A stretch of DNA of 64,000 nucleotides from Microcaldota archaeon. GTDB taxonomy: Archaea > Micrarchaeota > Micrarchaeia > Anstonellales > Bilamarchaeaceae. Below are positions 47,430 through 53,115 of this stretch, in pieces (the stretch's first letter is position 1; the number at the start of each line of letters is the position of its first letter). The notes below the pieces were generated by a model. That model made no database searches and was not told the DNA's origin. It saw only the letters and a list, made by a program, of their open reading frames with translations. The DNA lies in NCBI GenBank assembly GCA_016212525.1, contig JACRGD010000010.1:124001-188000 (forward strand). The letters are read 5' to 3'. Made by a program: the position numbers and the translations under genes.

Positions 47430-48239
47430 ATGAAAAACTACATCATACTATTCATCATAAGTCTGTTGATATTTGGGTGTATTGGACAACCAATTGAGAA
47501 CAAACCAATCCCAGTTGGAGCTAATAATACAAATACACAAAACATTCAACCGCCAGAAACACAGGCAATGCAAGCAGTAGCTCAGGAGATAAGCTTCAGT
47601 TCAGAAGGTTGGACAATATATGGATCAATGTATCCAGCAGTAAATTCAAATCCCAGTACAACCATTGTTCTTGCACACATGTTTTCACATGATCGAACAG
47701 ACTATTCCTCCGAGTTCGTAAACAAACTCCACAACGAAATACCAAACGCAGTAATTATAGCAATAGATCTAAGAGGACATGGGAGAAGTACCAACAAAGG
47801 ACGAGACAGCGACCTTTCTGCGCAGGACATAGCAGGAATGAAAAATGATGTCATTGGAGCCAAGAATTTTGTAAAGAGCAGATATAGTAGCGTGAACAGT
47901 GCATACGCAATAGGTGCAAGCATTGGATCGACAGCATCGATGTTAGCGGCTGGTGAAGATAGAGAGTTTACAAAAGTTGCAATGCTCGCACCGGGACTAG
48001 AATACAGAGAAGTAGACATACGCACCGCTGCAGAAGCATTTAGAGGCGATCTGTTTCTAGTTTCATCTAATAACGACCCATATGCAACCGAATCAGCGAA
48101 CGAACTGACAAGAATTTCAGGTGCCAGAACAAAACAGACTAAGATATACCCAGAGGGACACGGCTCGGAAATATTTGGAAACGAGGCCCAAGTAACACCA
48201 AAACTAGATGATTTGCTAGTTCAGTTCTTGAGAAATTAG
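47430..48239 (+). CDS. Membrane-anchored alpha/beta hydrolase (lipoprotein-like)
   Basis: 269 residues. A signal with lipobox-like LLIFGC (C17) starts the protein, followed by a Pro/Asn-rich linker and an alpha/beta hydrolase: IVLAHMFSHDRTDY (oxyanion loop), IIAIDLRGHGRS, GASIGSTAS (nucleophile Ser in G-x-S-x-G), DPYATESA and EGHGSEIF (acid and His). An archaeal lipoprotein of this kind would face the outside and cleave an ester, possibly peptidase-like. It lies 21 bp downstream of KsgA, same strand. Confidence 0.8.
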   Translation: MKNYIILFIISLLIFGCIGQPIENKPIPVGANNTNTQNIQPPETQAMQAVAQEISFSSEGWTIYGSMYPAVNSNPSTTIVLAHMFSHDRTDYSSEFVNKLHNEIPNAVIIAIDLRGHGRSTNKGRDSDLSAQDIAGMKNDVIGAKNFVKSRYSSVNSAYAIGASIGSTASMLAAGEDREFTKVAMLAPGLEYREVDIRTAAEAFRGDLFLVSSNNDPYATESANELTRISGARTKQTKIYPEGHGSEIFGNEAQVTPKLDDLLVQFLRN

Positions 48240-48255: not shown

Positions 48256-49380
48256 TTAAAAACCAAACATTCCCTTTTTTGCTCCTTTTTCTTCTTTTTC
48301 AAATTCCCTAAGGAGCTCTTTTTGCCTAGAGGTAAGACGTTTTGGAACTTCAACGATAACACGCACGAGCTGATCGCCCTTGTTTGTAGTCTGTAAAATA
48401 GGCATTCCCTGACCTCGAAGCCTAAAGACCGTGTGTGAGGCAGTTCCAGAGGGAATCTGTAATTTGGTGTTACCCCAGATAGTTTTAACTTCAATTTCTC
48501 CACCTAACGCAGCGACAGTAAATGGAATTGAAGCTTCAACCCGAATATCATCGCCATCACGGACAAATGAATCGTTTTCGCCGACTCTTATAAACACATA
48601 AAGATCGCCAGGCCCACCTCGACCAAATTCGCCCAGACCATCCAATCGAATTCGCATCCCATCTTCAATACCAGGAGGGATGTTAATTTTGACATGCTCC
48701 ATTTCGCTCGTTTTACCTGATCCGCTGCAACTCTGACAGGGTTTTTCTAAAGATGACCCCTCGCCATGACACTTGGGACAGGTAGTAACAGTATAGAATG
48801 ACATGGGACCGGCCCTACGATTCTGTTGAACCTGACCACGTCCCTTACAGGTCGGACATGAAGTCCTAGAACTCCCTGGTTCGCCACCTGAACCCTTGCA
48901 TCTTGAGCATGCTTTTGTCCGATGGAATGAAAAATCTTTCTTAAGACCTTTTGCCGCATCTTCAAGGGAGATGTCGATTTCAGTCTGCAGGTTAGCACCC
49001 TTGCCACTTCTTCGCGAACCACTAGAGCGACCCGAGGAAAACTGAGAACCAAAGAGCGAACCGAAAACATCGCCAAATGGACTGTCCTCGCCAAAGAGAT
49101 CTTCAAAACCACTAAAGTTAGCTCCCCGGAATATGTCTTCCTGAGAATACATCTGATCAAAGCCGGCATGACCGTATTGATCGTATTTGGAGCGCTTATC
49201 AGGATCGGAAAGGACTGCATAAGCCTCGCTAAATTCCTTGAATCTTTCTTCTGCGCCAGCTTCTTTGTTTTTATCAGGATGATATTTTAGTGCAAGCTTA
49301 CGATAGGCAGACTTGATTTCATCTGGAGACGCGTTTTTTTGTACACCAAGAATTTCATAGTAATCTCTTTTGGAAGTCAA
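48256..49380 (-). CDS. dnaJ: Chaperone DnaJ
   Basis: 374 residues with full type I layout: J domain with HPD ([10 protein letters not shown], residues 1-70), Gly/Phe/Ser-rich linker, a zinc domain with four C-x2-C-x-G-x-G repeats ([32 protein letters not shown]) and the C-terminal substrate-binding domains ending KGMFGF. It stimulates DnaK ATPase. Last gene of the operon, after a second J-domain gene (4-bp gap). Confidence 0.96.
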
Positions 49381-49384
49381 TCAA

Positions 49385-49804
49385 TCACCTATAGGAAGAA
49401 TCAAATTTAATATCTGAACTAAATACGGATTTCATCGAAGAGATCATACGCATTTCCTCACAGAGGTGTTTGCCCTTGCGACAAAGGGAACAGGAAACTC
49501 GATGAAATTGCTCAAGAGAAAGAACATGATCGCTAAAGAGCTTAGTCCAGTAGTTCTTGATTATGATCTGATTAGCGGCACCAGAAGCATCAGATGAAGA
49601 ATCAAGTGGAATTGAAGTTGGATCTATCTTGCCACTGAGAACAGCATAAGCTTCGCTAATTTCCTTGAATTTATTTGCTGCTTCGGGTTCCTTGTTGCGA
49701 TCGGGATGATATTTCATTGCAAGGATTCGGTATGCCTTTTTGATTTGTTCATCAGTGGCATCATTAGGAATACCAAGAATTTTGTAATAATCTTTTTGAG
49801 GCAT
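49385..49804 (-). CDS. Second, short J-domain protein with Cys-rich C-terminus
   Basis: 139 residues. J domain 1-70 with HPD ([11 protein letters not shown]). The rest is unlike DnaJ: a Ser/Asp/Ala linker, [20 protein letters not shown] with a [11 protein letters not shown] pattern (about residues 105-116), then a polar tail. The Cys cluster could bind a metal. No zinc-domain repeats. A specialised co-chaperone of the DnaK encoded 114 bp upstream is likely from operon position; the substrate is unknown. 4-bp gap to dnaJ. Confidence 0.85.
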
Positions 49805-49918: not shown

Positions 49919-51814
49919 TTATTTTTTGTTGTCATCGACCTTTTCGAAGTCCCCCTCGACAACTTTATCATCGCCATCCTTGGCAGATTCAGATGAACCG
50001 GAACCTTGGGAACCTGAACCATCAGATGGACCACCTGGACCAGCCTGCTGCGGACCGCCCTGACCGTAGACAGATGCACCGACTTCCTGAAGGAGTTTCT
50101 TTAATTCCTCGGAATCGGAATTGATCTTTCCAACATCATCGCCCTTTGCTGATTCTTCAAGTTTCTTTTTGGCAGCTTCGATCTTGGACTTAAGGTCTTC
50201 TTTTATCTTATCCTTGTAGTCCGAAAGGGTTTTGGTGGTAACATAGATCAACGATTCGGCATCATTCCTTGCATTTGCCAACTCAAGCGCCTTCTTATCT
50301 GAATCGGCAAACTTCTCTGCATCGGCCATCTTGGACTTGATTTCATCATCCTTCATCTTCAGAGGCGCAGTAACCCGCATACTCTGCTCTTTATTGGATG
50401 CCTTATCCTTGGCGCCCACATGCAAAATACCATTTGCATCAATATCGAAAGTAACTTCAACCTGCGGAACACCACGTGGAGCAGGCGGAATGCCAGTAAG
50501 AGTAAACTTACCAAGCGAGACATTGTCCTTTGCCATGGGCCTCTCACCCTGCAAGATGTGGATGTCGACAGCAGGCTGCATGTCTGCTGCGGTCGAAAAG
50601 ACCTGAGACTTTTTGGTTGGAATTGTCGTGTTTCGATCGATGAGTTTGGTAAACACGCCGCCCATGGTTTCAAGACCAAGCGAAAGCGGAGTTACATCAA
50701 GCAACAGAATGTCCTTAACTTCACCGGAAAGAACACCACCCTGGACTGCTGCACCCATTGCCACACATTCCATGGGATCGATTCCACGCTCGACAGTTCG
50801 ACCAAGAGTGTCTTCGACAAATTTGAGAATCATAGGAATGCGGGTTGGACCTCCGACCATAATGATTCGATCGATCTGGTTTGGAGATAGTTTCGCATCC
50901 TTAAGCGCCTGCTCAACTGGACCGCGGCAGCGCTCGACAACAGGACGAATCAAATCTTCAAGTTTTGCTCTAGTAAGCTTGTAGATGAAATGTTTTGGTT
51001 CGTTGTTGGACATCGAAAGGAAGGGTAGATTTATCTCAGATTCGAGAGTAGTTGAAAGTTCGATTTTTGCCTTTTCTGCGGCTTCAACAAGTCGCTGCTG
51101 CGCCTGCTTGTCTTTGGAAACATCAACACCAGTCTCTTTTCGGAATTGATCGGTAAGGAACTCGCAAATTATGCGATCCATGTCAGTTCCACCAAGCTGA
51201 GTATCACCACTTGTGGATTTGACTTCAAAAACTCCGCCGCCAAAGTCCATGATGGTTACATCCAAGGTTCCTCCACCAAGATCGAAAACCAGGATCTTCA
51301 TTTCCTTGGATCCCTTATCAAGACCATATGCAAGACACGCTGCAGTCGGTTCATTCACAAGTCGCTCGACATTAAGACCGGCAATAGTACCGGCATCTTT
51401 GGTTGCCTGTCTCTGATTATCATTAAAGTAAGCAGGAACAGTAATTACGGCCTTCTCGACTTTTTCGCCTAAAAAGGCTTCGGAGTCGCGTTTTATCTTT
51501 TGAAGTATAAATGCAGAAATTTCCTGAGGCGAGTATTCTTTAGTCTGACCACCAAATTTAACAGTAACTTTTTTGCCAGAACCCATCAACCGTTTGACTG
51601 CGCGAATAGTTCCCTCGGGATTAGTAACGGCCTGTCTTCTTGCAGGTTCACCAACCAAAAGCTGGCCATCTTTAGTAAATGCAACATAACTGGGAAATGC
51701 TTTTCCGTATTGGGTCATACCCTCTGCGCTGGGAATAATCCTTGGAGCACCATTTTCCAAGTAAGCCGCCGCACTGTTTGAAGTTCCCAAATCAATACCG
51801 ATTATTTTCGACAT
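49919..51814 (-). CDS. dnaK: Chaperone DnaK (Hsp70)
   Basis: 631 residues. Nucleotide-binding domain: [48 protein letters not shown]. Substrate domain follows with [20 protein letters not shown] and a helical lid, and a Gly/Pro/Ser/Asp-rich C-terminal tail ending DNKK. The bacterial-type Hsp70 system in archaea is regarded as a lateral acquisition. Operon order is grpE, 39-codon ORF, dnaK, J protein, dnaJ. Confidence 0.97.
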
Positions 51815-51864
51815 TCCAAATCACCCTCATATATTCACAATAATATTTTTCGTATTTTAGTCGC

Positions 51865-51984
51865 TTAAGATGCGACATTAACAGTTACCGGTTTTTTCAA
51901 GGACCGGACAATTCTTCGATATAGCTGTTCTTCTTTTGGCGTAAAGCCACCAATTAGTCCGATACTCAATGTATTTTCAACCAT
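51865..51984 (-). CDS. 39-codon ORF between grpE and dnaK
   Basis: ATG 51984 lies 1 bp after the grpE stop (51986-51988), behind a GGTAGTGA stretch that could serve as ribosome binding site. The 39-residue product (starts MVENTLSIGLIGGFTPKEEQ) has a short hydrophobic N-terminal segment, then a basic helical part (LYRRIVRSLKKPV). It ends with TAA at 51865, 50 bp before dnaK. Codon use resembles the flanking genes. It is too short for usual gene finders. Function unknown; position suggests a DnaK-system partner or leader-type regulator. Confidence 0.5.
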   Translation of the reverse strand: MVENTLSIGLIGGFTPKEEQLYRRIVRSLKKPVTVNVAS

Positions 51985-51985
51985 G

Positions 51986-52573
51986 TTAATCACTACCCAT
52001 CCGATCAATTTGTTTTTCACCATTACCAACGCTGACTTTAGCTATCCTAAGAACGTGATGCTTGAACATATAGCCCTTAAGAAGGACATCGACCAGCTTG
52101 CCATCATCACCAGGAATATGCCGAATCGCCTCGTGCCGATGAGGATCGAAGGAATCCCCAACTTCACCAAACGAAGACAATCCGTCTCGCTTAAGCGTAT
52201 CGAGAAGCTTTCCAAAAACCAACTTCATGCCCTTGCCAAATTCTGGATCTTTTGCTTCCAGATGTGAGATCGCGATCTCAAATTCATCAAAGAAAGGAAG
52301 AATTTTTCCCATAAGATCAGAAGCTGCCAGTTCCCTGACCAATTCGTTTTCGCGTGCAGCACGTTTCTTGTAATTTTCGAAATCCGCACTAAGACGCAAA
52401 AGCCGCTCTTCGAGGGATTTGATTTTTTCATTGGAATCAATAGTAGATGCAGGTACTGAGGCATCTTCAAGGGGTTCGGATGGATGTTTCTTATCAGAAA
52501 TGAAATCACCTAAAACAGTATTCTCTTTTTTAGATGAATCGGGATTTATTTGTTCCTCTTTATCGGATTTCAC
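51986..52573 (-). CDS. grpE: Nucleotide exchange factor GrpE
   Basis: 195 residues, GTG start at 52573 behind GGTGG. An N-terminal disordered region (to about 55) precedes the long coiled coil (KSLEERLLRLSADFENYKKR), then LMGKILPFFDEFEIAISHLE and GLSSFGEVGDSFDPHRHEAI, and the beta domain ends GYMFKHHVLRIAKVSV. It exchanges ADP for ATP on DnaK. First gene of the operon; the divergent winged-helix gene shares its promoter region. Confidence 0.94.
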   Translation of the reverse strand: MKSDKEEQINPDSSKKENTVLGDFISDKKHPSEPLEDASVPASTIDSNEKIKSLEERLLRLSADFENYKKRAARENELVRELAASDLMGKILPFFDEFEIAISHLEAKDPEFGKGMKLVFGKLLDTLKRDGLSSFGEVGDSFDPHRHEAIRHIPGDDGKLVDVLLKGYMFKHHVLRIAKVSVGNGEKQIDRMGSD

Positions 52574-52686: not shown

Positions 52687-53115
52687 ATGCAAAAACGAAG
52701 ATATGTACGTCATATTTCTATCGTTGAAATAGGCATGCCAACTCCCAATGAAGACGATCCGTACTTAGAACTCGAATGGATTTATCGTTGTTTAGGCCTG
52801 GGAGATGAAAGCGACGAACTGGGTAAACAAATTTTTAAGCAATTAGTTCTGGCCAGCATGAAAAATGAAGGCATTTCATCTCGGGAGATAATGGATAAAG
52901 AAGACGTAACTCAGGCAGCGATAGTCTATCATCTTAATGCCTTCATACGCGCGGGGCTCATAATTAAAGTAGGCCGAAAATATTATCTTCGTGCCCAGAC
53001 GCTCGAAAATACGCTTGAAGAAATAGAGAACGATGTCCGGACAAGACTCGAGCGAATCAGAAAAATTGCAAGGAAAGTCGAGGAATTTCTCGAAGTCGAA
53101 CAGCAGGACAAATAA
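52687..53115 (+). CDS. Winged-helix regulator divergent from the grpE operon
   Basis: 142 residues. TATA at about 52654-52661 puts the transcription start near ATG 52687 (leaderless). A basic N-terminus is followed by an ArsR-like winged helix (IFKQLVLASMKNEGISSREI, VTQAAIVYHLNAFIRAGLII, KVGRKYYLRAQ), and then by a coiled-coil helix to the end (LEEIENDVRTRLERIRKIAR). Its divergence from grpE and the paired palindromes between them suggest it represses the chaperone genes and itself in unstressed cells. Confidence 0.72.
   Translation: MQKRRYVRHISIVEIGMPTPNEDDPYLELEWIYRCLGLGDESDELGKQIFKQLVLASMKNEGISSREIMDKEDVTQAAIVYHLNAFIRAGLIIKVGRKYYLRAQTLENTLEEIENDVRTRLERIRKIARKVEEFLEVEQQDK

Follow-up and report, generated by a model that had tools for sequence, protein, structure and literature searches.

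The grpE-dnaK locus

The window, the whole stretch of 64,000 nucleotides analysed here, comes from a Microcaldota archaeon with a genome of 1.47 Mb and carries on its minus strand a chaperone operon in the order grpE, a 39-codon ORF, dnaK, a short J-domain protein and dnaJ. The features referred to in the text are as follows:

48256..49380, minus strand: dnaJ (family matches)
49385..49804, minus strand: short J-domain protein (PF00226, E=1.9e-24)
49919..51814, minus strand: dnaK (Hsp70; PF00012, E=2.5e-221; TIGR02350 over cut-off)
51820..51828, minus strand: Shine-Dalgarno-like GAGGGTGAT of dnaK, outside the microprotein ORF (read directly)
51865..51984, minus strand: microprotein gene, ATG at 51984, 39 codons plus TAA (51867-51865)
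51868..51888, minus strand: codons for the conserved heptapeptide at the C-terminus, VTVNVAS in the window and V-P/V-V-G-I-A-S in most relatives
51986..52573, minus strand: grpE, nucleotide exchange factor (PF01025, E=6e-32; GTG start as listed)
51989..51997, minus strand: partial Shine-Dalgarno-like GGTAGTGAT of the microprotein gene, within the grpE end (read directly)
52687..53115, plus strand: winged-HTH protein (ArsR-like), divergent from the operon (weak Pfam matches below cut-off)

The 39-codon ORF, hereafter the microprotein gene, encodes MVENTLSIGLIGGFTPKEEQLYRRIVRSLKKPVTVNVAS. As a preliminary description of this DNA had reported, it lies between grpE and dnaK and opens one base after the grpE stop; its own stop falls 50 nt before dnaK, for which a separate ribosome site is present. 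The plausible ribosome site proposed for the ORF itself holds up in part, as a partial Shine-Dalgarno sequence inside the end of grpE, and stronger Shine-Dalgarno sequences occur upstream of the gene in several relatives. Between positions 48000 and 57500 of the window there are 91 ORFs of at least 30 aa; as a bare ORF the microprotein gene is unremarkable, and it is conservation that lifts it above chance.

Two neighbours deserve mention in their own right. The second J-domain protein of the window (49385-49804; 139 aa) consists of a J-domain and an unrelated C-terminal part, and is found before dnaJ in some relatives and missing from others. The winged-HTH protein was present in 20 of the 20 relatives' loci compared (divergent in 19; same strand in G021, locus L160), is kept with or without the microprotein gene in the locus, and has a conserved N-terminal QRRYYRQI segment (alignment A4). 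Kept with the operon in this way, it is a candidate operon or heat-shock regulator.

Occurrence among relatives

GrpE was searched for in the window genome and 98 relatives and was present in 61 of the 99. Within one family of DPANN archaea (f1; 43 genomes), 28 genomes had a GrpE match and the grpE-dnaK gap was read in all of them. Frame and length, the conservation of which the preliminary description had named as a check, are kept in 11 of these 28: each holds in the gap an in-frame ORF of 36-48 codons with a common ending, placed directly upstream of dnaK in every carrier, and the remaining 17 do not.

A profile built from the nine members first seen (A1) was run over the 301 genomes of the class and gave eleven matches at E <=2e-10, all in the grpE-dnaK slot, including two genomes outside the model (G017, 1.9e-14; G029, 1.4e-17). 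The next-best match (G116, E=7e-4) is an internal stretch of another protein, which we take to be HicB-like. A second profile from all eleven members (A2) recovered the same eleven from the 301 genomes and no others at E up to 0.01; its class and phylum searches returned sets of equal size. Among known families, Pfam gave no match for the three of the 11 microproteins scanned, NCBIfam a single match (E=0.076) and PHROGs a best value of 0.05 for all 11, and PDB 0 matches for the microprotein profile. A literature search, largely of sources outside the subscription journals, found no description of the ORF. Judged from these sequences, the ORF is a protein-coding gene restricted to one lineage.

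Other genes were seen at the same junction. In family f5, of the same order, the slot holds a different conserved protein of 109-111 aa (alignment A3; loci L018, L020, L021, L026, L193 and L194), which is longer than the microprotein, shows no similarity to it and has an ending of its own, STL/STV-x-V/I-Y. Two members had no convincing Pfam match and the alignment no PDB match. In further archaea (L178, L183, L185, L082, L111) ORFs of other kinds, 59-244 aa long, separate grpE from dnaK, and the junction looks like one that accepts small genes.

The history of the gene was read from a tree of DnaK, GrpE and the HTH protein (34 rows, 808 columns, quick method), on which presence of the microprotein needed six changes compared with 9.5 in shuffles. 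A clade of 21 rows (support 81) takes in all eleven carriers along with ten non-carriers, and a gene lacking from 10 of 21 genomes is therefore dispensable. From its distribution, the gene was probably inherited from the ancestor of this DPANN clade and lost several times; one gain with several losses is the natural reading, and with only two changes forced by the starred branches the number of losses is uncertain. Nine of the ten non-carriers have grpE-dnaK gaps of 0-14 nt; the gap of the tenth, G015 (L011 / L149), measures 131 nt, contains internal direct repeats and no microprotein, and is perhaps a remnant after loss.

Conservation of the C-terminal tail

The feature common to all eleven carriers is a tail of seven residues ending at the stop, mostly V-P/V-V-G-I-A-S. 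Counted back from the stop (n=11), the columns are S 9, A 2 at -1; A 11 at -2; I 10, V 1 at -3; G 10, N 1 at -4; V 9, I 1, T 1 at -5; P 5, V 4, T 1, L 1 at -6; and V 6, I 5 at -7. Upstream, from -8, there is no comparable constraint across the carriers. Three different stop codons follow the 11 tails. The tail of the window, VTVNVAS, has diverged and is the odd one out at -3 and -4.

The comparison of synonymous with nonsynonymous change suggested in the preliminary description came out in favour of coding. Over the last eight codons, the 55 pairs (which are not independent) have 180 synonymous and 170 nonsynonymous differences, with only 16 and 32 synonymous differences in the other two frames of the same codons. 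Most changes in the tail fall at the third codon position (290 vs 174 and 111), and its serine is TCY in some carriers and AGY in others. The tail is conserved at the amino-acid level, not the nucleotide level. Eight chosen pairs of the 55 gave pN/pS values of 0.15, 0.30, 0.80, 0.18, 0.24, 0.60, 0.56 and 0.46, four of them thus within 0.15-0.30, with synonymous sites near saturation in several pairs. Because homologues occupy the same slot in 11 of 28 genomes and the synonymous bias is confined to this frame, the gene stands above chance.

A chance ORF, or a spacer of indifferent sequence that keeps translation running from grpE to dnaK, might have been expected from the commonness of short ORFs and from the ATG, which in several genomes abuts or overlaps the stop of grpE. 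Such an origin is very improbable given the synonymous-biased tail, the profile matches in two unused genomes and pN/pS down to 0.15; amino-acid-level conservation of the tail contradicts it, and the translated spacer entertained in the preliminary description is excluded in its sequence-indifferent form.

The body of the protein evolves differently. In the sister pair G009/G016, with DnaK 91% and GrpE 82% identical, the microprotein bodies agree at 5/29 residues and the tails at 6/7; over all pairs, identity averages 0.67 in the tail against 0.15 in the body (the body figure is ungapped, hence too low). A body motif, LGF-(D/E)-(S/N)-E...YLKIK.SL or near it, is plain in six members, present in part in G000 and G019, and lacking in three of the 11 (G022, G009, G016). 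A single-sequence AlphaFold model was modest (mean pLDDT 73, pTM 0.38), with strand 6-11, helix 16-29 and strand 33-38. Selection common to all carriers seems, from these alignments, to see only the free C-terminal heptapeptide, and the body may be rewritten. The protein-like character noted in the preliminary description is borne out by synonymous bias and conservation; the basic helix it mentioned is not the conserved part, the constraint lying in the last seven residues.

Use of the tail elsewhere in the genome was considered and rejected. The pattern V-G-I-A-x-stop had 17 matches in 21 genomes, eight of which are the microprotein gene itself (carriers G000, G019 and G017 have tails that the pattern misses). 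The other nine are short frames of about 8 to 102 residues, two without a terminal stop; in G000 and in G026 there is one more frame with the ending VGIAS (13 and 32 residues respectively), otherwise unsupported, and the 301 genomes held no other convincing copy. Nor does the tail occur at the ends of GrpE, DnaK, DnaJ or the HTH protein in the genomes read, where several DnaK and DnaJ rows end at the locus edge.

Possible modes of action

A small partner or regulator of the Hsp70 system, as first suggested for this ORF, fits a coding gene that always lies between grpE and dnaK (11/11). Our preferred reading, held tentatively and at somewhat less than even confidence, is that the microprotein acts in trans on the DnaK machine through its free C-terminal tail, the partner being one that we infer. 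With V/I alternating with small residues, the tail would make a natural edge strand. It may lie extended, V/I -7, V -5 and I -3 on one face and G -4, A -2 and S/A -1 on the other, and could bind in a groove on another product of the operon, for which the peptide-binding site of DnaK or DnaJ is the likeliest candidate. The microprotein would then be a weak built-in competitor or an assembly aid. In carriers that have it, the amphipathic body (LGFDSE-E--LYLKIK-SL) may contribute further binding, without being essential.

Action in trans is favoured in part because of precedents in the literature. DafA of Thermus thermophilus, a protein of about 78 aa, is encoded in the dnaK operon. The published account describes DafA as sitting in the DnaK-DnaJ complex until substrate expels it (PMC3727329). 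Like DafA, which we compare by description only, the microprotein is a small extra protein beside the Hsp70 system; unlike it, the microprotein has 36-48 aa, lies between grpE and dnaK and is defined by its C-terminal tail. Disordered N-terminal tails of GrpE are described as entering the DnaK substrate site (PMC12915176). The likeness to the E. coli GrpE tail (17-IIM-19) is that of a short hydrophobic motif from an operon neighbour that may compete in the substrate site, with the difference that the microprotein is separate and its motif C-terminal, with a strict G-I-A-S/A end. Finally, a third report states that many DPANN archaea carry the whole bacterial DnaK-DnaJ-GrpE system (PMC8204110).

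Several observations weigh against the preferred reading. After correction for about 2,800 tests, no position in DnaK, GrpE, DnaJ or the HTH protein correlates with having the microprotein; the best co-varying position, DnaK column 118 (p=2.2e-4 among 1181 tests), fails correction. Binding in the substrate site of DnaK would call for neither the G, A and S residues nor an exact C-terminus. The gene is missing from 10 of the 21 clade members, the window tail has diverged, and 3/11 carriers are without the conserved body. Replacement of the GrpE N-terminal tail by the microprotein was rejected, these tails looking alike with and without the gene (some rows have uncertain starts). In family f1 the GrpE N-termini look disordered and repeat short motifs (KLVEHE/ELLE and the like) that may correspond to the DnaK-entering IIM motif of E. 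coli.

Regulatory leader peptides such as TnaC, ErmCL and SecM stall ribosomes, and the microprotein could likewise be a nascent-chain leader, its tail stalling or slowing the ribosome at the end of the ORF and so tuning dnaK translation or operon transcription, with the free protein inert. Like these peptides it is a small ORF immediately ahead of the gene it would control, with conserved C-terminal residues: in all 11 members constraint is found only next to the stop, the conserved stretch runs exactly up to the stop codon, dnaK is the next gene, and the body is rewritable. The ribosome exit tunnel has about the length of a chain of 36-48 aa, that of the microprotein. The penultimate Ala is GCA/GCG in 11/11 (product of the genomes' own frequencies 0.0066, post hoc and with relatedness ignored). 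Unlike the known leaders, however, no RNA structure, fixed spacing or fixed stop codon was found. The stop and the dnaK ATG lie 10 to 62 nt apart; when the stretch from the last 90 nt of the ORF through the dnaK start was folded, z lay between -1.79 and 1.21 in the 11 sequences, and the ribosome site of dnaK was not consistently paired or masked. Well-known arrest motifs are discontiguous, whereas constraint on the tail is contiguous and strictest in its last four residues. We regard a leader as unlikely; an RNA attenuator was rejected for want of support, the 11 sequences having no unusually stable fold and a comparison with Rfam giving no match.

Set against action in trans on DnaK, a C-terminal degron would have the hydrophobic-Ala-Ser/Ala tail shorten the life of the microprotein, whose level would then signal how much chaperone or protease capacity is free. 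The final three positions of the tail, I-A-S/A, do resemble ssrA-type ends (ssrA tags end Leu-Ala-Ala), and genes for a Lon-type protease and the proteasome occur in 21/21 genomes. The proteases are, however, equally present in the ten non-carriers and hence show no association, and the constraint spans seven residues, more than a degron needs, which makes this explanation doubtful indeed.

Docking to a small heat-shock protein, through likeness of a V-P-V/I-P-V tail to the C-terminal IXI/IPV motif, a ligand of the alpha-crystallin groove, is scarcely credible. BAG3 is described as joining small Hsps and Hsp70 via IPV motifs (PMC6297355). That sequence resemblance notwithstanding, HSP20 (PF00011) was found in only 3/21 genomes (1/11 carriers, 2/10 non-carriers; 12/14 control genomes positive), and the candidate was rejected on its presence in a single carrier. 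In each of these three HSP20-positive genomes, the HSP20 gene immediately precedes grpE in the same orientation:

G003:C70:5060-5356, grpE strand: HSP20 gene
G005:C6:7085-7390, grpE strand: HSP20 gene
G012:C30:12559-12858, grpE strand: HSP20 gene

Significance

Either as a stand-alone tail ligand that sets the DnaK substrate cycle in trans or as an archaeal nascent-chain sensor before dnaK, the microprotein may represent an undescribed type, a possibility we put a little short of an even chance. Small Hsp70 accessory proteins are few and hard to find, and the microprotein adds a lineage-restricted, apparently ancestral and repeatedly lost case. Since it is reduced to a target of seven residues, tests of what it binds and of what follows from its loss should be unusually easy. 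The carriers are archaea with very small genomes that keep a tiny gene flanked by those for two components of their main protein-folding machinery. Together with the other genes seen at this position, this suggests that the grpE-dnaK junction of DPANN archaea, part of a bacterial-type DnaK system, repeatedly takes in small lineage-specific genes.
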